IMG/VR virus record: IMGVR_UViG_3300021961_000588
Location: 1-25,066 of that record
Length of the DNA stretch: 25,066 nucleotides
Reading direction: 5' to 3' (one strand)
DNA from: a virus
Shown here: one piece after another, positions 4,605 to 20,384 of the stretch
Layout of the letters: every line of letters starts with the position of its first letter
Position numbering within the stretch: position 1 is the stretch's first letter
Program-made: the position numbers and the translations under genes
The notes under the pieces: model-generated
What the model saw: the letters and a program-made list of their open reading frames with translations, nothing else
Database searches by the model: none
Told to the model about the DNA's origin: nothing

Positions 4605-4862
4605 TCAGCCCTCGAAGCCGGGGCGCATCGTCCCCTTGGCAGCCGACGAGAACACGCCGCCACCCGACTTGCGGGGCTTGCGACCAGCGTGAGCCATCGC
4701 CGCAGCACCGTGGATCTTGCCCATGTGCTTCGCCTTGCCACCACGCTTGAAGCCCTCGGCCTTGTTCTTGGCCTCGCGCGCGACGTTGGAACCCGCGCCA
4801 GCATAGAACCCCGAACCGAGATCCTGCTGCGCCTTCACACCCTTCTGAGTCTTGCCCTTCAT
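4605..4862 (-). CDS. Small basic KRGG-motif protein
   Basis: An 85-aa very basic protein ('KAEGFKRGGKAKHMGKIHG', 'AHAGRKPRKSGGG'). It shares the K/R-x-GG-(K/R) motif style of the 620-aa protein at 9380-11242, and ends in a short 'SSAAKGTMRPGFEG' tail. A good Shine-Dalgarno sequence precedes the ATG (AGGAGAAGGCAAA). No enzyme motif, membrane helix or signal peptide is seen. It is probably a virion or DNA-binding protein. The shared motif suggests that the same partner or processing activity acts on both proteins; that is inference. Confidence 0.6.
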   Translation of the reverse strand: MKGKTQKGVKAQQDLGSGFYAGAGSNVAREAKNKAEGFKRGGKAKHMGKIHGAAAMAHAGRKPRKSGGGVFSSAAKGTMRPGFEG

Positions 4863-8663: not shown

Positions 8664-9056
8664 TCACCACACTTCATCGGGCGACTTCACGCGCCCCTTG
8701 ACCTGCGTATCAGACAGGATTCGACACAGAACACCGTTGACCGTGATGTTCCAACCATCGGAAGGACGGAAAACAAGCCACTCGTTGAGTGCAAACTTGT
8801 CCCCCTTGAACCATCCCTCCTCGTTTTCCTCGAAAGCGCGCGGCCCCATCTTCAGGAGCAGCCCAACCTTCGACTGAAAACGGTCCTCGTCGGTCGTCTT
8901 GTCCGACAGATAGAGGCCACTCTTGGTCTTCTGTGGCCTGATGTAGACACCGACAAGGATCTGATTGTTGAAGATCTCGAAAGTAGAGATGTCCCCAATA
9001 TCGCTCAGAATCTTTTTCGCAGGATCAATCTCATGTTCCATACGCATGAACGGCAT
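8664..9056 (-). CDS. Phage GroES-like co-chaperonin (Cpn10)
   Basis: A 130-aa protein starting at ATG 9056, chosen over a far upstream start because GGGGAG precedes it and the extra 28 residues look non-coding. It shows the Cpn10 beta-barrel pattern: 'NQILVGVYIRPQKTKSGLYL' at the start of the barrel, a mobile-loop region around 'SDKTTDEDRFQ', then 'VGLLLKMGPRAFE', 'EWLVFRPSDGWNITVNG' and 'CRILSDTQVKGRV'. Like T4 gp31, such proteins cap host GroEL and adapt it for folding the phage coat protein. No GroEL is present in the window. Position directly before scaffold and coat supports a capsid-folding role. Confidence 0.75.
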   Translation of the reverse strand: MPFMRMEHEIDPAKKILSDIGDISTFEIFNNQILVGVYIRPQKTKSGLYLSDKTTDEDRFQSKVGLLLKMGPRAFEENEEGWFKGDKFALNEWLVFRPSDGWNITVNGVLCRILSDTQVKGRVKSPDEVW

Positions 9057-9066
9057 AGTTCTCCCC

Positions 9067-9267
9067 TTACCGTTGATTAAGCTCCGTCTCCACCTCGTCA
9101 CAGGCATCCAGCGCAGCCAGAAGACCGTGAATAACACCAACCCGGAACTTGTAGTCGGTGTGTTCGATTGTTGCGTGAGCAGAAATCAGCGAATCTTTCG
9201 CAACTTCAATACGTTCACGCAGATTTTTCTTCAATTCACTCTGATAGAAAGCTTGATGAGTAAGCAC
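9067..9267 (-). CDS. Small helical protein of unknown function
   Basis: A 66-aa, mostly helical charged protein ('KKNLRERIEVAKDSLISAHA', 'GLLAALDACDEVETELNQR'). The start is GTG at 9267 with AGGGGG just upstream. It ends ten bases before the GroES-like gene and is probably co-transcribed with it. A short heptad-like pattern suggests a coiled coil. I do not recognise a family. It follows a 112-base non-coding stretch that may hold a promoter and is thus the first gene of the head-assembly group. Confidence 0.6.
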   Translation of the reverse strand: MLTHQAFYQSELKKNLRERIEVAKDSLISAHATIEHTDYKFRVGVIHGLLAALDACDEVETELNQR

Positions 9268-9379: not shown

Positions 9380-11242
9380 TCACTTCCTCGACGCAATCTC
9401 GGTCTTTTCCAGCCTCCCCAGACCGGAACCCGCGCCAGCATCCATGTCCTTGTAGCTGCGGTAGACCTTGCCACCAGCACGACGAGCCGAACGCTTGTGC
9501 GTCGCGATCTCGGTCTTCTGGAGGCGACCTTCACCCGAGCCAGCACCAGCCGTCATGTCCTTGTAGGACATCGTGCGACCACCGTGCTTGCGCCCCATCG
9601 GCATGGGACCGGCACCCGGCATCGCGGGCGGGGGCGCAGCAGGCGGCATCGGGCTGGCAGGCATACCCATCGGGGCAGCACCCGGACCACCAACCGGCAG
9701 CGGCGGCGGAACGGGACGGCCACCCGGCATCGGCAGCGGGGGAAGCGCGCCAAGGCCCATCGGAGCCTTCGCACCACCAGCATCGATCACGATGTTGATG
9801 TTGGTCTTGCCCTTCTTGGTGCGGCCACCAGAGGCGCGAGCCATGCGCTTGGCCTCGCCACCACGCTTGAAGGTCGGCGGAAGCATCGGAGACATGCGAG
9901 AACTCTCCGCGCGCTCCTCCTCTTCCTTCTTCTGCTGACGGGCAGCAGCCGCCTTCTTGGCGCGGAAGGCCTTGTACATCTGCTCCATCTTGGCTTCACG
10001 CTGAACGTCAGCCATCTGCTCGTCAATCGGGTCCATAGGCTTGGGCATACGAGCGGGAGGCCTCTCCTCGCCAGCGTAGGAGACGTAACGCTTCTTCGGA
10101 TTGGGATTGCTGGCAGTCGCGCGCGAGAGAACTCGCTCGATGTCGCTGATCTTGCCACCAGCCGCACGGCGAGAAGCAGGCGGAGGAGGCGGCGGGGGCG
10201 GCGGCGGAACAGGCGCGGGGCGACCACCACCGGGCATGATCCCTTCCGCAAACGGATCTTGACCCTGACGAATCATCCTGCGCTGGGCAGGAGTAAGCTG
10301 ATAGTCAGCAGGCGGCGGGGGAGGCGGCGGCGGGGGCGCATCGGTCATGCCACCACCAGCCTGCTTCTTCGCGTAACCGCCGCGACGGAGCTTCAGTTCC
10401 GAATGCTTGCCGCCATGCTGCGCCGTCTCATGCTGGCGCATGGCCTTCTTGACCAAAGCCTTGTCCTGAGCGGTGTCGTCAGCCTTGCCGCCCTTCTTGA
10501 GGCCGGTAGCGCGCATGGGAGAGAGAGCGCCACGCTTGACGCCAGAGAAGCCAAGCATCGCATTGGGGACACCGGCTCGCTGGGAGGCAGCAGCCATCAT
10601 GCGATTGGCCCCGCCAAGAGGACCGCCATCGTACTTCTTGGCACGACCGCCGCGCCGGAACGAATCATCCTTATCAGAATCATTTTGCTCAACTCGCTTG
10701 CCACCCTGCTTGCGATAATTGAGAACAGTCGAAGCATCATTTACCTGATCAAGATACTTTGCCTCAGACTTTGGACTATGACCACGCATCGCGCGAGCGG
10801 CTTCACCAGCATCCTTGATGATGTATCGAAGCGCCTCATCACTCTTGGTGTGGTAAGAATGCCCCTTGATCGGCATACCACCGCGCGCATACGCAGCACC
10901 GCCGCGCTTCAGACCACCAACGTGCTTCTCGCCCTCACGATCCTCGTTGGCGTCCTTCACGTTGCGGTTGACCTTGGCATTTGCATACGCGACCGCTTCG
11001 GTCTTGCCACCAGACTTGCGCTGCTTGCGATCCGCGCGCATCGGCCCGCAGGAACCGTCAACCTTGCCGCCGCTCTTGTAGGCTCGGCGCGAGACGGGAC
11101 GAAGCCCGGTCTTCACATCAGCCTTCAGCATCTCAGGCGGGGTGAAGGTCGAGGAATCAACCTTCTGGAGCGGACGGTCAGAGGCAAGGCGCTTGGCCTT
11201 GCTCTTCATGGCTTCGCGAGCCTTCTTTGCAGTCTGGTACAT
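9380..11242 (-). CDS. Basic K/R-x-GG repeat protein with polyproline tracts
   Basis: A 620-aa very basic, largely disordered protein. Short motifs such as KSGGK, KRGGA, RRGGR, KKGGK, RRGGY, KHGGR and RAGGK recur every 20-50 residues through the whole length. Two proline tracts of nine to ten residues flank 'LTPAQRRMIRQGQDPFAEG'. A Lys/Glu-rich helix ('KAAAARQQKKEEEERAESSR') and a Pro/Met/Gly-rich region follow. The C-terminus carries two copies of a 'SYKDM-AGAGSG-GRL-KTEIA' unit. TAGGAG precedes the ATG. Similar motif-rich proteins occur in phages near portal and scaffold genes, with unknown function. Basic charge and position suggest an internal, DNA-bound virion protein. It shares the GG motif with the two giant proteins upstream. 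Confidence 0.7.
   Translation of the reverse strand: MYQTAKKAREAMKSKAKRLASDRPLQKVDSSTFTPPEMLKADVKTGLRPVSRRAYKSGGKVDGSCGPMRADRKQRKSGGKTEAVAYANAKVNRNVKDANEDREGEKHVGGLKRGGAAYARGGMPIKGHSYHTKSDEALRYIIKDAGEAARAMRGHSPKSEAKYLDQVNDASTVLNYRKQGGKRVEQNDSDKDDSFRRGGRAKKYDGGPLGGANRMMAAASQRAGVPNAMLGFSGVKRGALSPMRATGLKKGGKADDTAQDKALVKKAMRQHETAQHGGKHSELKLRRGGYAKKQAGGGMTDAPPPPPPPPPADYQLTPAQRRMIRQGQDPFAEGIMPGGGRPAPVPPPPPPPPPPASRRAAGGKISDIERVLSRATASNPNPKKRYVSYAGEERPPARMPKPMDPIDEQMADVQREAKMEQMYKAFRAKKAAAARQQKKEEEERAESSRMSPMLPPTFKRGGEAKRMARASGGRTKKGKTNINIVIDAGGAKAPMGLGALPPLPMPGGRPVPPPLPVGGPGAAPMGMPASPMPPAAPPPAMPGAGPMPMGRKHGGRTMSYKDMTAGAGSGEGRLQKTEIATHKRSARRAGGKVYRSYKDMDAGAGSGLGRLEKTEIASRK
9383..9570 (-). repeat. Two-copy C-terminal direct repeat
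   Basis: The last about 27 codons (9383-9463) and a copy at 9493-9570 both encode SYKDM, AGAGSG, GRL and KTEIA. The DNA copies have diverged at synonymous sites, so the duplication is old and kept at protein level. Confidence 0.75.
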
Positions 11243-11304
11243 GGCAACTCCTAGCTAGGTTGTCGGGGCGTCCCCCGTTGCCGCCAGATTAAGCTTGGGC
11301 AGCT

Positions 11305-14133
11305 TCAAGCCTTCTTGGATGTTAGCATGAGTGCGCGCGACACAACACCACTTTCGTTCTTCTTAAAATTTGACTCTTCACCGCCAATTCCTTTGAACCC
11401 CAAAGCTCGCATGGCAGATGCCACAGGATGACTCAAAATGGGGGAAGAGATTGCCCCGCCAGAAGCAGCCCCTCGCATTGCGTCGATTACATCCTGATGA
11501 GTGGTGGTTTCATTTCCAACTTTATCCCAAATTGTGTGATGTGCAAGGTGCTGGTAGTAAGGGGAAAGATTTTGAGGAATTGTCAAATCTAAAGCCTTTT
11601 GCCTCCTAGCAAGCCTGTCAACTGCTGAAGCTCCAGCACCAGACCTTGAAAGATACTTTGAAGCTTCATCAGACGGACGGCCCGTATGAAGAACAATTTG
11701 CCTTGCATCAAGAGTTGGTTGATCTCCACGGCCAATCATAGATGCCATGAACCCAGCCTTAGATTCTCTAATTCCCCTGATAGGCTTGACCAATTCTCTC
11801 CACTCGCTTGGAGATGACTGCATTTGCTGCGCCCTAGAAACAAGTTCAGAAAATTTCTTTTCTTGCCCCGGAAGATTGTTTACCGCCCAAGTCAAAGCAT
11901 CAACAAGCTGATTTTGCCCACCAAAAGGCCTCATAATCCTAACTGCATCTTTAATGGCATCCTCATTGATGCGACCTTTCTCCGCATCATTTAGATAATT
12001 TTGCCCATAACTTGTATGAAGCCAATGACCAAATGCTCCTTCGGGCCTAACCATACCAGTAATACTATCAGGTATATTTAATCCGGCGTTTCTTACAGTA
12101 TCTGCCTTTCTTGCTGCCCTACGAATTGAAGATCTTGTAATTGTATAAGCTTTAATTAGATCGCGAGCAGACAATCCCTCCCCTGAAGCTTTGCTGGCAG
12201 TTTCATCCATAAAATTTCCGAAATCTTGGACATGCGACGGTATTTCGGATACGCCAATCTTTTCTCTAACCCTTGAAAGAGGCTTCCATTTCCAATCTGA
12301 AATGCCTTTCCGAGTAGATCCACCTTCAGCGTAGCCAACAGGACCAGTCGGGTAGTCGGTGGGAATCCGCGCCAGAGCGTTCTGCAACTGACCGATGTTG
12401 TATTCCTGATGCTGCTCCCGTGTGAGAGCAGGCTCTCCCGGCATGGTCGGCTCATGGCGGATCACGGGCTGACGAGCCTCCGCTGCGTCCATAGCGGGAT
12501 AGACCCGGTCGATGGCGCGGGAAAGCTGGTCTAGGAGGCTCTGCTGCTCGGATGTGAGTTGAGGCATGGATTGAGTATCTCCCGTTTTCCCGCCAGAAGA
12601 CATCGAAATTTTAGGCATTTCAGATTCACCTTCAAGGGCATCTTTTGCTTCAGAGAGCCAATCCTTGACAGACGAAACATCTTCATGATTTAAAATATGA
12701 ATATAGTTTCCAAACCTTTGAGGCCCAACACTATGATCAGATACCCTAATTTCAGGTGCAATATATCTTCTTCCTCTTACCAAAACTAGCGGAATATATG
12801 CACTATTTCCAATTTTTGTTTGAGACGAAGAATATGGATGATTTTCGTCTATATTTGCCTTTAGCTTGTAACCGAGTTCAAGCGCATGATTAGCAATATT
12901 ATGAGCAATATCAAAAACCTGCTCTCTTGATATTGGATTTTTAATTTTTCCGCCAGAAGCCATAGGCACAGCCCCGCCTATCTCATAGCGACGCTTGATG
13001 TTGATCAGCTTGTCATCAAACACGACGTAATTTTGTGTGCCTTTTCCCGCTCCGCGAGAACCGGCGTCAAGGTATTTGATTCCGGGTATGCCAGCTTTAA
13101 ACAAAATTTTTGATTGCTCAACCCTTGATGGATTTAAAATTTCAAGAACATTCGCAATTGGAAGATTTTCTTTTTCTTTTTGAGTTAGGTGAACAATTTT
13201 GCTTAAAAGACTTGACGCATATTCTTGCTCGCTTAGAGGCTTGTCCCAATCAAGAAATTTATCGGGGTGCGCGTTGATGCGAACCTCATAAATATTGCTT
13301 CTATTTTTTTTAATTCTTTCAATGGCCGCTTCCGCTTGCTCAAAGTCAAGCAGCCCATCTGCTGCCCTTGGTATACTGCCCATTTTTGCCAAATCGTACA
13401 AAACATCTGTGTCAGATTTGCCAGCATTCATCAATCGCAAAATATGCTCTTCCTGCTGATTTAAATCATATTTTGAAAGATTTTTTGCAGTAAACTCTCT
13501 ATCGTAAGAGCCGCCGCGCCCACTAACCGCTGGGCTTTCGGCAAAATACATACCATAGCCATAACTTTGAGCACCCTGACCAGTACCAATCTTTGATATG
13601 TCAAATTTATCAAATTTGTGAGGAGATGAATGATAGGCGTCGATGCCTATCTCTTCCGCAGGGAGAGGAGAGGCGATGTCGGATTCATCGACTGGGCCGC
13701 CAGATGCCCTAGCAGACCTGCCCCTGATGCGATTGATGATCTCCTGACCTCGCTTGGACGGAACATCAGGGTTGGGATTGGAGAAGCCGCAACCCCGGCC
13801 AAGGTCATACGGGGGCTTCTTACCCTTGCTGGTGAATTGCTCCTTGGTCGGGTCAATCACATGACCCGTATCGCGATGTCGAAGCCACCAATGAGTCGTG
13901 CCGTCACCTAGATTTGCAACTTGAGGGACGTAACCGCTTTCCTCGCCGCCAAGCATGTAATACGCGGCCTGAGTAGCTGATCCACAATGACCGAAGGTTG
14001 GATGCTCGCCCTCGCTCATCTTCCTGTACTTTGGCTTAAGAAGATCGGGCGTCAGAACAGACTGAATCTTGCCGACAAGATCCTTGGTTTCCTTGTCGGA
14101 GAGAGGACGCCTTGTTTCTTGATCGTCAGCCAT
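11305..14133 (-). CDS. Polyvalent-type protein: Cys peptidase-like, ART-like and HhH-GPD-like modules
   Basis: A 942-aa multidomain protein. ATG 14133 (GGAG six bases upstream) is preferred over TTG 14154, which overlaps the preceding stop. Residues 1-140: a papain/transglutaminase-like domain with C50 ('GHCGSATQAAYYMLGG'), H81 ('THWWLRH') and D94 ('HVIDPT'). Residues 160-385: an ADP-ribosyltransferase domain with H168 ('AYHSSPHKFDKFDISKIGTG') and 'YGYGMYFAES', as in ART-PolyVal proteins. Residues 395-510: an unrecognised AT-rich module. Residues 515-600: GC-rich helical. Residues 605-888: a helical domain with 'FGHWLHTSYGQNYL' and an HhH-GPD-like 'SKAGFMASMIGRGDQPTLDA'. Modules are separated by ASGG, ASGG, SSGG, AEGG and ASGG (near residues 144, 393, 513, 603, 891). 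It is probably a packaged, delivered protein; activity is inferred. Confidence 0.75.
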   Translation of the reverse strand: MADDQETRRPLSDKETKDLVGKIQSVLTPDLLKPKYRKMSEGEHPTFGHCGSATQAAYYMLGGEESGYVPQVANLGDGTTHWWLRHRDTGHVIDPTKEQFTSKGKKPPYDLGRGCGFSNPNPDVPSKRGQEIINRIRGRSARASGGPVDESDIASPLPAEEIGIDAYHSSPHKFDKFDISKIGTGQGAQSYGYGMYFAESPAVSGRGGSYDREFTAKNLSKYDLNQQEEHILRLMNAGKSDTDVLYDLAKMGSIPRAADGLLDFEQAEAAIERIKKNRSNIYEVRINAHPDKFLDWDKPLSEQEYASSLLSKIVHLTQKEKENLPIANVLEILNPSRVEQSKILFKAGIPGIKYLDAGSRGAGKGTQNYVVFDDKLINIKRRYEIGGAVPMASGGKIKNPISREQVFDIAHNIANHALELGYKLKANIDENHPYSSSQTKIGNSAYIPLVLVRGRRYIAPEIRVSDHSVGPQRFGNYIHILNHEDVSSVKDWLSEAKDALEGESEMPKISMSSGGKTGDTQSMPQLTSEQQSLLDQLSRAIDRVYPAMDAAEARQPVIRHEPTMPGEPALTREQHQEYNIGQLQNALARIPTDYPTGPVGYAEGGSTRKGISDWKWKPLSRVREKIGVSEIPSHVQDFGNFMDETASKASGEGLSARDLIKAYTITRSSIRRAARKADTVRNAGLNIPDSITGMVRPEGAFGHWLHTSYGQNYLNDAEKGRINEDAIKDAVRIMRPFGGQNQLVDALTWAVNNLPGQEKKFSELVSRAQQMQSSPSEWRELVKPIRGIRESKAGFMASMIGRGDQPTLDARQIVLHTGRPSDEASKYLSRSGAGASAVDRLARRQKALDLTIPQNLSPYYQHLAHHTIWDKVGNETTTHQDVIDAMRGAASGGAISSPILSHPVASAMRALGFKGIGGEESNFKKNESGVVSRALMLTSKKA

Positions 14134-14150
14134 CTCTGTCTCCAAGATCC

Positions 14151-17100
14151 TCAAAGATTACCCGTCTTTTTCAGAAATTCAACAAGCGCATCTCCGGTCA
14201 ACTGAACAAAAGGCTCAATTGAATCGGTAGAAACATATTCATTTTCTTCTATGCCCGGAACAGTAAGATTTCCAAATATATCGCTATAAGAATGCAGAGG
14301 TGTGCTCCATACCTTTTTTCTCTTGCCATATGGATCTGTAACTTCTTCTGTATGGTGAAAATCATCTCCGACCCAATAAATGTTGTAATCTTTCAGATCT
14401 TTTTTATGAACCAATGCAAGATGCCCATGATTTTTAATGTCATCCTCCATCAGTTCGTTTTCGTGTTTTCCAAGCTTTCTTGCCGCAATTGTCTTTACCC
14501 ATTCAGGCTTTCTTGAATACCAAGATGCCTTTGGAAGTGATTCTTTATATTCTCCGTATTCGCTTTCAGACATTCCGTAGTCTTCGCTATCCATGTTTTC
14601 ACTTGTCCAAGTACCAGACTCAGCACTCATCGGATCAATGCCATGCTTCAAATCATTTGGATCTGCGGGGGATGAGTGATAAATAAATCTGTTTTTGTTT
14701 TTTACCAAATAGTTGACATCTGGAATTTTTCCCTTGTGATTGTCACTAACAATAATTCCTTCATTTTTATTTTTGGGAACATCTCCTCCAGAAGAAAATT
14801 TGCCAAATTCCTCTCCAAGGAAGATCGGCCTGCCGTGGATCTCTTCCCTGATATGTACACCGGGAATTGAAAGAACGGGATGGATATTTTGCGGAACCCC
14901 GCCACGAGCCATCATAGGCGCAGGAGGAGGAGGAGGCGCAAACCCGACAGGCTTCACCATGCCAGCCTGCGTTTCCTCGTCGTCGTTTGATAGGCGGAAG
15001 CCATAGAAGGAAGGTTCAGGCGCAAGAGGATCGGGGATCATGCCGCTGTCATTCCCACCAGCACGATTGCCGGGGAAGCCAGCTTCATAAGCTGCCTGCT
15101 CTCGGGAAGCCTGCTCCGCACCACGACCGGGTCTCGCTCCACCGGGATCAACGACATCGTATCCCTGTTCGCGAGCGGCCTCGTTCAGCTTTTCCGCGCC
15201 AAGGGCAACCAGACCCAGAGGTGTGCCACCGATGAATCCAACGATACCGGGGCCTGTGTTCAGTTGCTGCTCTGCCGTTCCCAGAAAACTCCCGCTGGTG
15301 TTCCCCACTCCAACACCGAGGGAGCCAGATCCGGGTGGCGAGAAAGCCGTGCCCGTAGCCCCACCAAGCATTGATGGGTCTGATTCAGGAGGAGAGTAGC
15401 TGGGAGGAGCATCTGTGCTGAAAGCAGGAGAGTCCTGAGTAGCATCTGGCGCGGAGTCCCCACCGCTTCCAGAATCTCCGAACCCTCCTCCAGAGGTATC
15501 CGAGTCACCACCAGCAGCACCACCACCGACCTCAAAGTGCTGCCTAACCTCTCCACCGCGAGCGTAGTAGGAGAAGCCCCGCTTCAGGATCGATTCACGC
15601 AGTTCAGGAGTGATCTCGATGCCGGGGAGCGTGACATTCTCTCCGTCATTGCCCTTCACGACATGGGATGTCGGCTGGATCTTGTCTGTATGAGGCTTGA
15701 GGACGCGACGGAGAGCGGAAGGAAGCATCTTGTCGTAGAAGGACTTCATGCCTTCGCCACCGACCTTTAGGTCAAGACCCTCAAGGCTAGGAGGGTGCCT
15801 ATCAATTTCTTCCTGCAACTTATCATTCAAATGTTCACGGGCATCACTCTTGGAGTCAAACTCAAGCATTCCCCCGCCATGATCATGCGAAGGTTCTCCA
15901 TAAAGGTACAATCCCCACTTATTGCTATTTGGATGCCTTAAAACCTCATATTCATCTAAAAAAGATTTGGAATAATCAGATTTCTCAAGAAGTTTTTCGG
16001 CAAGTTCATTTCCAATATACTTTTTGATATCATGAGGCTCTACGTCATTTTCATATATAACATTTCGACCACTTTTATCATATGCATTAAATGACTTATC
16101 AAGTGGATGATATGTGACTTTGCTAATCTGTTTGCTCAGATCATATCTCTTTGCCTGCTCCTCACCCGGAGTCCAGACAAGCTTGTCGTATCCTCCGCGA
16201 GCGGCTTCTAGCAAAGCGCGCTTGAGGCCAAGCTCGACCCAATGGTCGGTGTTGGTGACGTAGGGGGCTGGTTCAATATGATCATCAAACCCACCCAATC
16301 TAGAAACTTCACTATAAAGATTTTTATATTTACTTACTTCATCATTGGGAATACTCATAAGTTTTGCATATCTTTCAAGATCATGCCCCGGATGAAAGCC
16401 ATATTTGTCTCCAAGATATTTTTGATGTTTGCTAAATTCATTTCTTGCAAATTCTCTTTTTTCTTTCATATCTTTGGTGTCAAAACCCTCATCTCGCCCC
16501 TTCTGCGCCCAGTCGGACTGAAGCTCTTCAAGGTGGAGGATGTTGTTATCGGGACCGCGATCCTGCATTCGCAGGTGGGTTACGATGTTTGTAGGTTCCC
16601 AATGAGAAGACTTGAACTTCTCCTCTCCGGGAAGATGGAGGAGGACTTCACGATAGTTTTTTGGATCATTTCCAACTGTATATTGTCCGTATTTAGTTGG
16701 TTCAATTTCACCTATAGGAGCCTCATCTTCAAGGCGCTTATCTCTTTCAAGAATTAAATTGCTTATTTGACGACGCAATGCTTTTACTGAGCCAATAGCC
16801 CCTTGAGAGTACATTATATCTACACGCTGCCTAAGTTCATTTATATCTGAATCATATTCTGCAATAATTGCATCTCGCTTGCTCTTAATTTCAGGATCAA
16901 TTTTACCACCAAGGACAGTTTCCTTGATCTGAGGCACATTCTGCTCGAAATGCTGGGCGAGATCGTCCTTTGTCACGGACTTCTGGCCCGCAAACTTGTC
17001 CTGTACCCCAGACCACTCAAGCTCGGCAGGCTTCACACCCTTCATGGTGGCTAGCATCTGCTGGGGAGTTCCCTTGGATTGGGGGAGGGAACGAGCGGAT

Positions 17101-17795
17101 TCTGCGGCGGAACTGTAGAAGCCCATGTCATCGAGATTGCGAGGCTGGTCTACGTCCCCGCCAGAAGCGTAGCCAACGGCACCACCATCAGCCTTCACGA
17201 CCACATGATGGTAGACAGGATGCTCCTTGCCCCTGACGCTGATCGTCCCGGCCTGCGGGCCAAGGAACACATCGCCAGTCGTCGTCGGACGAAGCCTCGG
17301 CTCGCTCCTTGACTCGGCGTATCGAGCAAAATCCACTCCCTTGGGGAAGTGTGCGTTCAGCGTGTAGTAGTGCTTGCCGCGATGCTCGACGGACACAATC
17401 GTGTTCGTGTCCTCATGACCTTCTGGCGCGGTCTGCCACGACCATCCAGCCTTCTGCTTGAACAGGTTCGTCTTGGTCTTCGCCTTGCCAGCAGTCCCGG
17501 TCTGGTCAACGGCATCACGCGACGCATTGAAGTAAGGCTTGCCACCCGGACTTACACCGATTGAGGCAACAGCAGACTTGTGTCCCGTCATGTCCTGCTT
17601 GTCAGGCATTCCGAGATACTGACCTCCGGGGACGGGAGCGTCGGAGGGGAACATCCTCTGTGGCTTGGGAAAGACAGAGACAGGATTGGAGATGGACGGA
17701 GAGATGTCCTTGGGATCAGCATCCCCGCCAAGAGCGAACCTGCGAGGCGAGCGAGCAAGCCTCAAAGCGTCTCGGATGATCCGGTCGTAGCTCAT
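14151..17795 (-). CDS. Giant polyvalent-type multidomain protein
   Basis: A 1214-aa protein whose ATG overlaps the portal stop (ATGA). Residues 1-24: a basic amphipathic helix ending FALGG. Residues 25-205: an unrecognised domain ('KPYFNASRDAVDQTG', 'GKHYYTLNAHFPKGVD'). Residues 215-740: a large domain known from phage polyvalent proteins, with 'KGTPQQMLATMKGVKPAELE', 'LHLEELQSDWAQKGRDEG' (about 418) and 'LVWTPGEEQAKRYDLSKQ' (about 536). Residues 748-960: a Gly/Ser/Pro-rich linker with a hydrophobic stretch ('GPGIVGFIGGTPLGLVALGA'). Residues 1005-1214: an AT-rich module with 'FIYHSSPADPNDLKHGIDP' (H1040) that resembles ADP-ribosyltransferase-like domains. GG motifs lie near 23, 211, 747, 965 and 1003. 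Position after the portal suggests an internal or ejected virion protein. No catalytic role is proven. Confidence 0.7.
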   Translation of the reverse strand: MSYDRIIRDALRLARSPRRFALGGDADPKDISPSISNPVSVFPKPQRMFPSDAPVPGGQYLGMPDKQDMTGHKSAVASIGVSPGGKPYFNASRDAVDQTGTAGKAKTKTNLFKQKAGWSWQTAPEGHEDTNTIVSVEHRGKHYYTLNAHFPKGVDFARYAESRSEPRLRPTTTGDVFLGPQAGTISVRGKEHPVYHHVVVKADGGAVGYASGGDVDQPRNLDDMGFYSSAAESARSLPQSKGTPQQMLATMKGVKPAELEWSGVQDKFAGQKSVTKDDLAQHFEQNVPQIKETVLGGKIDPEIKSKRDAIIAEYDSDINELRQRVDIMYSQGAIGSVKALRRQISNLILERDKRLEDEAPIGEIEPTKYGQYTVGNDPKNYREVLLHLPGEEKFKSSHWEPTNIVTHLRMQDRGPDNNILHLEELQSDWAQKGRDEGFDTKDMKEKREFARNEFSKHQKYLGDKYGFHPGHDLERYAKLMSIPNDEVSKYKNLYSEVSRLGGFDDHIEPAPYVTNTDHWVELGLKRALLEAARGGYDKLVWTPGEEQAKRYDLSKQISKVTYHPLDKSFNAYDKSGRNVIYENDVEPHDIKKYIGNELAEKLLEKSDYSKSFLDEYEVLRHPNSNKWGLYLYGEPSHDHGGGMLEFDSKSDAREHLNDKLQEEIDRHPPSLEGLDLKVGGEGMKSFYDKMLPSALRRVLKPHTDKIQPTSHVVKGNDGENVTLPGIEITPELRESILKRGFSYYARGGEVRQHFEVGGGAAGGDSDTSGGGFGDSGSGGDSAPDATQDSPAFSTDAPPSYSPPESDPSMLGGATGTAFSPPGSGSLGVGVGNTSGSFLGTAEQQLNTGPGIVGFIGGTPLGLVALGAEKLNEAAREQGYDVVDPGGARPGRGAEQASREQAAYEAGFPGNRAGGNDSGMIPDPLAPEPSFYGFRLSNDDEETQAGMVKPVGFAPPPPPAPMMARGGVPQNIHPVLSIPGVHIREEIHGRPIFLGEEFGKFSSGGDVPKNKNEGIIVSDNHKGKIPDVNYLVKNKNRFIYHSSPADPNDLKHGIDPMSAESGTWTSENMDSEDYGMSESEYGEYKESLPKASWYSRKPEWVKTIAARKLGKHENELMEDDIKNHGHLALVHKKDLKDYNIYWVGDDFHHTEEVTDPYGKRKKVWSTPLHSYSDIFGNLTVPGIEENEYVSTDSIEPFVQLTGDALVEFLKKTGNL

Positions 17796-20086
17796 CAGAT
17801 GCCTCCGCCCATCTTATCGCGCGCAAGCTCGTTCAGGGCCGGGCGGATCAGAGGAGCAACCAGACCCGCGCTCTCGGGATGGACAGCGAGGTTCTGCGCC
17901 AGATCCACAAGCTGGACGCGCTCCTTCGACAGGCGATCCTCTCGCTTGTTCTCCAGATCGGCATCCGAGTAGTTCATCTCCGCCTTGGCCTTCTCGGCGT
18001 CGATGTTCGTCTTCGTCACCTTGCTGTGCGCGTCGATCTGCGTCTTGGCGTTCTCAAGCTGGAGCTTCTCCTGCTGGGCTTGCACATCGGCCTGCGCGCG
18101 CATCGTGTCGGCGTCAGCCTTCTGCTTGTCGATCTTCAGGCGCTCCATCTTCTCGATCAGTTCAGGATGCGGCCTGCCCTGAGCTTCCATTGGGATCAGG
18201 AACTGCTCTGGGTTGCTCCAGCCAATCGTCTTCAGGGCTTCCGTATCAATCGCAACCGGGTCGTACATGTTGGGGTTCGCGGCCTGAAGCTGTTTCAAGG
18301 CCATGACCTTCATCACCCGCTGCGTATGGCTGGCCGTATTCGGGTCAGCCTGCGGGACAAGCTCGCAATCGTTCAGCGCCTGAAGGAAGGTCTGCTCGTT
18401 CCACTCGATGCTGGGCTTCTTGCAACGCTGCCAGAAGCTCTCGGGATGCTCACGGAAGCACCGGACCAGAAGCTGGAACTCCTCGGCCTGCGCGTTGTGC
18501 ATACGCTTGTGGACCGCATTCATGACCTTAGTGGCCTGATCGATCAGGGCCAGCGTCGTCCCCACAGGCGCATCAGCCTTGCCCTCGCCAACGGCAAGCT
18601 CTGACGTACCGCCAACCCGCGCGCCAGTCTCGCCCATGTTCTGGACGAGGTTCATCAGCGCAGCGGAAGGCTCCTTGTACGGCAGCGGCATCACAGCCTG
18701 ACTGATCGGCATCCCGCCGGTCTTCACCAGCGCACCACCACCGGGCGGCACACGGAAGATGTTGGTGTTCTGGCGCGCACCCGTATCAGCCATGAGGAAT
18801 CCGGGGAAGTTCGCGTACATCCCGGCGTCCAGAAGCTCGCGCCAAGCAGCCGTCATCGCATTGGTCGTGTTGCCAAGGATGTGCAGCAGGCCGATGTCGT
18901 AGAAGCCCATGCCCGGAACGAACGTGTACTTCACGAACACCTTGCGCGCAGTCGGAAGCTCGCCGTCCTCCTCGTCGTAGTTACGCACGACAGAGAGGAT
19001 CTTCTTGGTCGAGACATCAATCGTCACGCGATACGGGATCTCAAGGCCGGAAGCACTTCCCTTGTACTTGTGTTCAAAGCCCTGAATATCGAGTTCGCAA
19101 TAGCACTCGTAGATCTCGCGATCCCGATCATCGGGGTTCATCGTCCCTTCGGAGATACCCTGCTGTGCGTTCTTCTCACGCTGGACGCTGTCAAGCTGCG
19201 GCTCCAGAGGCGTCGAGAGATCCACATCCTTGTACGCGCCAAGGATCTGCAAACGCTTCACCGTCGAAGGACGCATGAACACACGATGCGTGATGCGCTT
19301 CGCGTTCTGTAGATCCGTCGCCATGTTGTTGACGATCAGGTCGTCCGCATCGACGCTCTCGCTCACCGGCCTGTTACGCAGCGGGCAGAAATAGACCTTC
19401 TTGAACGAGCAGCCGCCAAACCCAAGCATCAGCAACATGCGGTCCGTGTCGGGGTAGTACTCGGACGCCACGCTGGTCAGGTAGTGGTTCAGATCCTTCT
19501 CCAGAGCCTCGCTCAGGCGATCCTGCTGCGGAGTGGTCGTCGTCGCATCGTTCCTGATCTTCACCGGCCCATCGGTCGGCAGAAGCTCGCTGCGGGCATT
19601 GGCCTGAAAGCGCAGGACAGCCTCCAGAAGCAGAGGATGGCGGACCTTGCTCATGCCCTCGACAGGAGCGCCATCGGACGCGCCCTGTAGCCCCGGAATC
19701 TCGATCTTCAGCCCCAGAAGCTTGATGCCCTGCGCTCGGTCCTCGATCCAGTCCTTGCGGCTCTGTAGATCATCCCCGATACCGCGCATCAGTTCCTCGC
19801 TGATGCGGCTCAGTTCACCCTCATCGATGTCATCGACAAGGTTGCGGAACCATTCCTTTGCATACTCAGCCTCGGACTGGCCCTCGTCGGCAATCCCCTT
19901 CCCATCCAAGGAAACCGTGACCGATCCGTCCTCATGCTCGATGCGGAGGATCTCGCCACGGTCGTTCCTGTCAGCCTTGGGCTGTCCCTCATCGATCTCG
20001 ACAACTACCCCCGGCCCTGCCTCCTCCATCTCGGGAGACGGAAAGACCTGACGCAGATTAGGCACAAGGCCGGGTGTCATCGGCAT
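17795..20086 (-). CDS. Portal protein (P22-like)
   Basis: A 763-aa portal, close in length to P22 gp1 (725 aa). Motifs typical of large podovirus portals are 'DWIEDRAQGIKLLGLKIEIP', 'KVRHPLLLEAVLRFQANARS', 'FGGCSFKKVYFCPLRNRPVS', 'VFVKYTFVPGMGFYDIGLLH' and 'AWRELLDAGMYANFPGFLMA'. A long coiled coil near the C-terminus ('KQKADADTMRAQADVQAQQE') would form the barrel seen in P22. The protein forms the dodecameric ring at one capsid vertex and is the docking site for terminase. AAGGAGG precedes the ATG by six bases. It follows terminase, the tRNA and a small gene, and its stop overlaps the next start. Confidence 0.85.
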   Translation of the reverse strand: MPMTPGLVPNLRQVFPSPEMEEAGPGVVVEIDEGQPKADRNDRGEILRIEHEDGSVTVSLDGKGIADEGQSEAEYAKEWFRNLVDDIDEGELSRISEELMRGIGDDLQSRKDWIEDRAQGIKLLGLKIEIPGLQGASDGAPVEGMSKVRHPLLLEAVLRFQANARSELLPTDGPVKIRNDATTTTPQQDRLSEALEKDLNHYLTSVASEYYPDTDRMLLMLGFGGCSFKKVYFCPLRNRPVSESVDADDLIVNNMATDLQNAKRITHRVFMRPSTVKRLQILGAYKDVDLSTPLEPQLDSVQREKNAQQGISEGTMNPDDRDREIYECYCELDIQGFEHKYKGSASGLEIPYRVTIDVSTKKILSVVRNYDEEDGELPTARKVFVKYTFVPGMGFYDIGLLHILGNTTNAMTAAWRELLDAGMYANFPGFLMADTGARQNTNIFRVPPGGGALVKTGGMPISQAVMPLPYKEPSAALMNLVQNMGETGARVGGTSELAVGEGKADAPVGTTLALIDQATKVMNAVHKRMHNAQAEEFQLLVRCFREHPESFWQRCKKPSIEWNEQTFLQALNDCELVPQADPNTASHTQRVMKVMALKQLQAANPNMYDPVAIDTEALKTIGWSNPEQFLIPMEAQGRPHPELIEKMERLKIDKQKADADTMRAQADVQAQQEKLQLENAKTQIDAHSKVTKTNIDAEKAKAEMNYSDADLENKREDRLSKERVQLVDLAQNLAVHPESAGLVAPLIRPALNELARDKMGGGI

Positions 20087-20308: not shown

Positions 20309-20384
20309 TGGTGCCGGATGCAGGAATCGAACCCGCGACAAACGGTTTACAAAACCGCTGCTCTGCCGACTGAGCTAATCCGGC
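20309..20384 (-). tRNA. tRNA-Thr (anticodon UGU), CCA encoded
   Basis: A full cloverleaf on the minus strand. Acceptor GCCGGAT pairs with ATCCGGC; D-arm GCTC/GAGC; anticodon stem GCGGT/ACCGT (one G-U) around loop TTTGTAA gives anticodon TGT; T-arm GCGGG/CCTGC with TTCGATT; discriminator A; CCA encoded. The anticodon reads ACA. It starts two bases after the terminase stop and its CCA lies 13 bases before the next gene's start, so it must be cut out of the late mRNA. Confidence 0.95.

Follow-up and report, generated by a model that had tools for sequence, protein, structure and literature searches.

Polyvalent proteins of phages are giant multi-domain polypeptides that combine ART-like and other effectors. 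They are encoded beside portal or head genes, and packaging has been predicted for those that lie close to a portal gene (Iyer et al. 2017, PMC5512222). In phage T4, a short N-terminal capsid-targeting sequence is proposed to send unrelated cargo into the head, and the first 10 residues of IPIII suffice for head entry (PMC9026906). In phage P1, the N-terminal 30 residues of DarB load this giant defence protein, as well as a reporter, into the P1 head (PMC9024508). In bacterial microcompartments, short terminal encapsulation peptides on a disordered linker load cargo (PMC13185644). Here, we analyze a virus contig from IMG/VR that is 25,066 bases long (IMGVR_UViG_3300021961_000588; this whole stretch is called the window), in which two giant polyvalent proteins, P0001 and P0002, carry short terminal tags and a recurrent Gly-Gly (GG) motif. 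The motifs are most likely flexible joints that link swappable effector modules to end tags, not self-cutting sites.

P0001 and P0002 share two features with described polyvalent proteins. Each contains several distinct domains, delimited by shuffling and by structure models, and the pair lies beside head genes, with the portal gene immediately upstream and GroES-like, scaffold-like, and capsid genes downstream. The shuffling borders and models bear out the modular polyvalent architecture proposed in the first-pass annotation of the window. In contrast, neither a GG motif nor terminal tags are described for polyvalent proteins, and the words glycine, linker, and papain are absent from that text (PMC5512222). 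The feature typical of the T4 and P1 signals, a short terminal element common to otherwise unrelated cargo of one phage type, is found here as well. However, the T4 element is an N-terminal propeptide in a system whose proheads are matured by the gp21 protease (PMC9026906), whereas the present proteins combine tags at both ends with GG linkers, and searches of 12 clade records for S78, ClpP-type, and S49 families recognised no prohead protease. The available sections of the DarB report (PMC9024508) showed neither tags at the C-terminus nor linkers with GG, and the likeness to DarB is one of proposed function. The microcompartment peptides (PMC13185644) serve a different shell with unrelated proteins and provide an analogy only. 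Searches of an open-access library found no account of such tags.

A Gly-Gly motif that follows the phage clade

Searches with P0001, P0002, and the portal protein as queries gave about 110 related loci (numbered with the prefix L), of which 72 are distinct by portal sequence. All GG motifs quoted earlier for the two giant frames are present. In P0001, these are FALGG (residues 20–24), YASGG 212, YARGG 747, ARGG 965, and SSGG 1003, where the number denotes the first Gly; in P0002, they are ASGG 152, EIGG 393, ASGG 401, SSGG 521, AEGG 611, and ASGG 899. Overlaps counted, P0001 contains 24 GG pairs and P0002 contains 10. The GG-rich basic protein P0005 and the small protein P0006 (4605–4862), which had also been singled out, contain 24 and 3, respectively. 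A strict form of the motif, [YF]xxGGx[VIALPTYM], occurs five times in P0001 against 0.41 expected from 5000 shuffles, twice in P0002 (0.17 expected; p 0.012), and four times in P0005 (0.15 expected).

Residues on either side of the pair are conserved as well. Across 112 cargo proteins of the relatives, Tyr or Phe is found at −3, Ala two residues before the pair, often Asp, Ser, or Arg just ahead of it, and Val or Ile two residues past it, giving the sharpened motif [YF]-A-x-G-G-x-[VI]. The pattern [YF][AKR]xGG occurs 138 times in these proteins against 11.1 in shuffles, a 12-fold excess, and 67 times against 3.5 expected in 34 P0005-like relatives. Kinship among the proteins inflates these counts, but the distinct contexts still number 152. 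Elsewhere, the pattern is near chance or absent: 0 versus 2.5 expected in the portal, 0 versus 0.6 in the capsid protein, 4 versus 1.7 in the terminase large subunit, and 0 versus 0.1 each in the GroES-like and scaffold proteins. In phages that lack this portal (Dfl-JY45, vir555, Tunturi_5, Mx1, phiGT1, and IMG/VR loci L034, L036, and L037), homologues of these modules have only three strict hits in approximately 15,200 residues. Since module homologues outside the clade nearly lack the motif, it tracks the phage clade and not the modules.

Module borders and structure models

The location of GG motifs at module borders, as claimed earlier, holds for the strict motif. In the cargo proteins, 14.6% of blastp alignment ends lie within 5 residues of a strict motif, compared with 3.1% for random positions (z 18.7), whereas other GG pairs show little effect (17% versus 11.4%). 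Indeed, alignments of P0002 to L004, L028, and L006 omit residues 404/414–515, precisely the stretch bounded by two GG motifs, and numerous P0001 alignments stop at residue 750, at YYARGG. The P0001 module of residues 26–200 recurs elsewhere, e.g., with 91% identity at residues 163–361 of an L028 protein. The claim does not extend to every GG pair, an idea that was rejected: five P0001 sites (residues 296, 501, 534 (EAARGG), 640, and 679) lie inside the confidently folded domain of residues 217–745, and none of them fits the motif.

AlphaFold models were built from alignments of window and IMG/VR sequences. Every motif-type GG of P0001 and P0002 was placed in a segment with a predicted local distance difference test (pLDDT) score below 50, the linker placement for which structure prediction had been suggested as a check. 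With mean pLDDT values of 58 and 54, overall confidence is low for both models, and this disorder call is therefore indicative only. The modelled folded parts are the ART-like domain (residues 161–384 of the 942-residue form of P0002), a helical domain, and the large P0001 domain of residues 217–745, which matches predicted polyvalent proteins of uncultured phages with E-values down to 1.6e-26. The ART-like module scores below the cut-off against ART-PolyVal (E 0.19), and fold matches include ART-PolyVal-annotated proteins. When both models were compared with the PDB by Foldseek, nothing scored below E 0.001; thus, the Cys domain of P0002 and the other modules are not assignable by fold.

Coincidence with borders and predicted disorder would also suit plain flexible linkers or recombination junctions that are alike through descent and module shuffling and have no docking role. 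Yet the flanking Tyr/Phe and Val/Ile residues are conserved, and the motifs are repeated in P0005, which has no modules. Two features of the C-terminal tags described below also argue against this explanation, namely their fixed distance from the stop codon on unrelated protein bodies and the variable third codon positions of tag B, which speak against a DNA-level junction. We regard plain linkers as unlikely.

Terminal tags on unrelated proteins

A listing of protein ends showed that the motif is accompanied by terminal tags: an N-terminal ALRLAR helix, C-terminal tag A (VVDRALMLTSKKA), and C-terminal tag B. The N-terminal tag MSYDRIIRDALRLARSPRRFALGG and its variants comprise nearly the same 24 residues followed by differing sequences in the window, L004, L005, and L027, and the helix pattern occurs 78 times against 6.8 expected in cargo proteins. 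Tag A, GG-(S)-[VI]-V-D-R-A-L-M-L-T-S-K-K-A, forms the C-terminus of the last cargo gene product; its window form is ESGVVSRALMLTSKKA. Tag B, GG ... HPxLxIPGVHI(R)...GxPxFxG, forms the C-terminus of an earlier one. In P0001 of the window, tag B is internal and a further module follows, whereas it is terminal in L005, L030, and L031.

An unbiased scan of 2.9 million IMG/VR contigs used degenerate DNA versions of the two C-terminal tags, with fewer than one chance match expected per pattern by our own estimate. Tag A was found at 25 loci, all in frame, and a stop codon follows 16 to 33 residues further on in 25 of 25. In 24 of them, a P0005-like gene lies 13 to 64 bases downstream, and the remaining one has a portal gene. 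The 49 tag B loci include 44 within 22 to 27 residues of a stop, four internal copies, and one that runs off the contig end; a portal gene accompanies 44 of the 49, and further clade genes accompany the others. The 175 residues upstream of the tag fall into nine unrelated clusters for 17 distinct tag A proteins and into 14 for 29 tag B proteins. A GG pair lies within 30 residues of the tag in all 17 tag A proteins and in 31 of 32 tag B proteins. Judged from sequence, a short element that stays at the ends of proteins with unrelated bodies, within a single clade, has the appearance of a tag for docking or loading. Linker position and terminal tags together support the non-proteolytic alternative offered in the first-pass annotation, that GG motifs are flexible linkers or packaging tags.

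The third codon positions of tag B are variable, and therefore selection acts on the protein; a DNA-level recombination site was rejected as its cause on the same ground but may apply in part to tag A. In tag A, three codons show extra third-position conservation, and CTTnnnnTA is kept even when residues change. In addition, a hairpin lies between tag A and the P0005 start; its loop context G-GACG-C is fixed in 25 of 29 distinct phages, and stem pairs 2 to 5 each show three or more covarying pair types. The rows for the stem pairs, taken from exact locus sequences, were preselected for pairing, so that only the variety of pairs is informative. Because of CTTnnnnTA and the hairpin, part of the tag A conservation may be at the nucleotide level. 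An explanation in which tag A owes its conservation mainly to codons shared with a P0005 promoter or RNA leader could draw on these invariant third bases and the conserved hairpin. However, the remaining codons are free at the third base, diverged tags retain SIDRALRLTS through other codons, similar helices occur at N-termini and within proteins far from P0005, and tag B has no such signal. This explanation is accordingly given little credence. The case for tags is strongest for tag B and the N-terminal tag, as tag B, unlike tag A, is free of nucleotide constraint.

CTTnnnnTA lies within the tag A codons of L132–L154, whereas the window has CTC ATG CTA instead (11320–11355, minus strand). It is perhaps an extended −10 promoter or another signal that overlaps the coding sequence.

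A third C-terminal element, KDAALHKALEIIHHLLTR, was also considered as a swapped tag. Its matches are C-terminal in 100 of 102 cases and preceded by GG in 102 of 102, in a gene directly after the portal (L200–L287). It was rejected because 87 of 98 bodies belong to one family, and we take it to be a conserved protein end.

The Cys-His-Asp domain and the question of cleavage

The first-pass annotation had proposed a possible self-processing polyprotein, in which the Cys-His-Asp domain at the start of P0002 would cut both giant proteins after GG and free their modules. Cysteine peptidases that cut after GG exist, the motifs lie in accessible predicted linkers, and the triad is real: Cys50, His81, and Asp94 (942-residue numbering) are invariant in all seven aligned homologues, which come from the window's clade, Caulobacter phage phiCbK, cyanophage S-CAM9, and Myxococcus phage Mx1. 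Residues 8–150 of P0002 match phrog_12251 well (E 1.4e-23). The match to YunG (PF24585) is weak, at 19.9 bits below the 27-bit cut-off, and six of the seven members are weak matches (best E 6.4e-5); the domain may be remotely and weakly YunG-like. A profile search of the PDB with this domain gave no match, and it is modelled with low confidence because usable homologues are few.

Despite the triad, the distribution of the domain does not follow that of the motif. Of the distinct clade islands that carry two or more strict motifs, 40 in all, just 3 contain it and the other 37 do not. Its profile detects it in 1 of 12 whole clade records; the 11 without it include the complete genome MW202675, which has 8 motifs. 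Elsewhere, the domain occurs without motifs, standalone in S-CAM9 and bacterial genomes and with a DNA-binding-like tail in phiCbK, and the 1479-residue Mx1 protein has the domain plus one chance-like motif. The motif is thus independent of the Cys domain: a domain that most phages with the motif lack cannot explain it. Self-processing also leaves the tags and the two-sided conservation around GG unexplained. Self-processing by the Cys domain is therefore not supported and appears highly improbable.

Cleavage in trans, at head maturation or after entry, by a host protease or a different protease of the phage would likewise suit motifs in predicted disordered linkers, and T4 and P1 process packaged proteins (PMC9026906, PMC5512222). 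However, no S78, ClpP-type, or S49 protease was found in the 12 clade records (the S77 search was without a working positive control), and P0005 is also motif-rich yet has no recognised modules to free. Trans cleavage is, in our view, quite unlikely, though less so than self-processing.

In Mx1 (L125, 5998–10437), the Cys domain forms the N-terminus of the 1479-residue protein, which is annotated as a NUDIX hydrolase. In L127, from a Saccharibacteria metagenome-assembled genome, a NUDIX-like stretch lies upstream of the Cys domain in a single frame. This suggests that NUDIX plus Cys domain is a recurrent polyvalent combination.

Proposed role of the tags

On balance, we favor P0001 and P0002 as tagged modular polyvalent cargo, whose tags would load the modules into the head and in which the Cys domain would be a single cargo enzyme that does not process the motif. 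Disordered linkers with [YF]-A-x-G-G-x-[VI] would string independent modules together and also tie them to the terminal tags, namely the amphipathic ALRLAR helix ahead of the first GG and a tag at the C-terminus. The type of the latter may be set by the place in the operon, with tag A on the last cargo gene and tag B on an earlier one. Given the precedents of T4 IPIII, P1 DarB, and polyvalent packaging, we propose that the tags dock onto some head component of the clade and carry the modules into the virion; candidates are the scaffold, the portal interior, and the GG-rich P0005. The modules would then be delivered at infection. Encapsidation, binding partner, and delivery are what we infer from these likenesses. 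The linkers are probably where modules are swapped, and a tag in an internal position, like the tag B copy of P0001, may be a remnant of the extension of a tagged protein.

Several points weigh against this proposal. Virion proteomics or binding data for the clade were not found, and the conserved tags could have roles other than loading, for example in folding or in contacts with pilot proteins or chaperones. In tag A, the coding sequence coincides with a signal at the nucleotide level, given the CTTnnnnTA codons and the hairpin before P0005. Furthermore, the tag patterns themselves fix about half of the residues, and hence only the unfixed positions, the C-terminal placement, and the restriction to the clade are independent evidence.

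Gene order and features of the window

The window is a phage contig with genes for a terminase, an SU10-type portal, a GroES-like protein, and a Mu-gpT-like capsid protein. On the minus strand, the order is terminase large subunit, tRNA-Thr, SU10-type portal, P0001, P0002, P0005, GroES-like, scaffold-like, two conserved genes, Mu-gpT-like capsid, and tail genes, which include a collagen-like fibre. The two giant proteins and P0005 thus occupy the interval between portal and GroES, all on the minus strand. Most relatives with a long enough contig share the order terminase, portal, one to three large genes, P0005-like, GroES, scaffold, and capsid. Among the annotated relatives are DSL-LC04, the complete MW202675, and two Pelagibacter phages, HTVC023P and HTVC027P; of the cultured ones, DSL-LC04 and HTVC027P have the motif in their cargo proteins. 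Throughout the clade, the GroES-like gene (window 8664–9140) lies directly before the scaffold-like gene, as it also does in Pelagibacter, Roseobacter, Caulobacter, and cyanobacterial phage relatives. The tRNA-Thr(TGT) is located at 20309–20384, between terminase and portal, and a tRNA-Val takes the same spot in Caulobacter phage RW. The features are listed in Table 1.

Table 1. Coordinates of features in the window (aa, residue positions in the protein)
Feature	Position	Strand	Basis and remarks
Portal protein, clade marker	17795..20086	-	SU10_portal E 1.4e-13; phrog_1216
P0001, 1214-aa polyvalent cargo protein, first gene after portal	14151..17795	-	Open reading frame; phrog_7348 at aa 204-559; relatives at 58-61%
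N-terminal tag MSYDRIIRDALRLARSPRRFALGG, helix and GG motif	17724..17795	-	Shared with different continuations in L004, L005, L027; helix aa 3-14 in model
P0001 module aa 26-200, a unit in other phages too	17196..17720	-	blastp borders; low-confidence model
Linker VKADGGAVGYASGGDV	17151..17198	-	Strict motif; pLDDT < 50; many alignment ends/starts
P0001 folded domain aa 217-745	15561..17147	-	pLDDT mostly 75-94; no PDB match
Linker YYARGGEVRQHFEVGGG, end of folded domain	15519..15569	-	Strict motifs; many alignments finish at aa 750
Internal copy of tag B, MARGGVPQNIHPVLSIPGVHIREEIHGRPIFLGEEFGKFSSGG	14784..14912	-	Equals protein C-terminus in L005, L030, L031
Extra C-terminal module aa 1005-1214, past tag B	14154..14783	-	Relatives ending at tag B lack it; alignments stop at aa 998
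P0002, polyvalent cargo protein, 949 aa (TTG) or 942 aa (ATG at 14133)	11305..14154	-	Open reading frame; relatives
Cys-His-Asp domain	13705..14133	-	phrog_12251; Cys 13984-13986, His 13891-13893, Asp 13852-13854
Linker ARASGGPV, Cys/ART-like boundary	13690..13713	-	pLDDT < 50; alignment border
ART-like module aa 165-396	12967..13662	-	phrog_873 E 1.3e-13; folded aa 161-384 of 942-aa model
Linker RRYEIGGAVPMASGGKI	12943..12993	-	Kept in relatives; L028 and L006 skip aa 404/414-515, resume at 516
Optional module aa 413-515	12610..12918	-	Missing in L004/L028/L006; flanked by two GG motifs
Linker SMSSGGKT	12583..12606	-	pLDDT < 50
Linker GYAEGGST	12313..12336	-	Strict motif; alignments end 612, restart 616-618
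Helical module aa 616-933	11356..12309	-	46-60% identical across many other architectures; confident model core
C-terminal tag A, ESGVVSRALMLTSKKA	11308..11355	-	Modelled C-terminal helix; conserved on C-termini of unrelated bodies
Hairpin CGGGG-GACG-CCCCG just before P0005	11264..11277	-	Before 25/29 distinct P0005-like genes
Palindrome CCTAGCTAGG over P0005 ribosome-binding site	11250..11259	-	Arm length 4.9 vs 3.3 in shuffles, 80 phages
P0005, GG-rich basic protein, 620 aa, last large island gene before GroES	9380..11242	-	[YF][AKR]xGG enrichment; repeats
P0006, downstream of capsid gene; small, basic, KRGG/KSGG motifs	4605..4862	-	Relatives in L070, L080

In most clade members, the C-terminus of the P0005-like protein consists of SYKDMxAGAGSGxGRLxKTEIA, once or twice, preceded by KxGG motifs. 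The leader between P0002 and P0005 (window 11250–11303, minus strand) is possibly a translational operator of the GG-rich protein. Rfam gave no family match for this leader, and the RNA fold of the leader alone is no more stable than that of shuffles (z −0.13). In some phages, the hairpin is translated as the protein end RGRP.

Significance for phage protein packaging

The rules by which phages pick proteins to pack with their DNA are known for only a few model phages. As tags in fixed positions recur on many unrelated proteins of environmental phages, a loading rule could be readable from sequence. We advance only tentatively the wider idea that, in a widespread uncultured clade, a slot-specific code of terminal tags on GG linkers loads interchangeable effectors into the head. 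If true, the tags would constitute a family of C-terminal capsid-loading tags, for which no description in tailed phages was found, and a ready-made scheme for protein delivery. A loading rule readable from sequence would allow prediction of which unknown phage proteins are injected.

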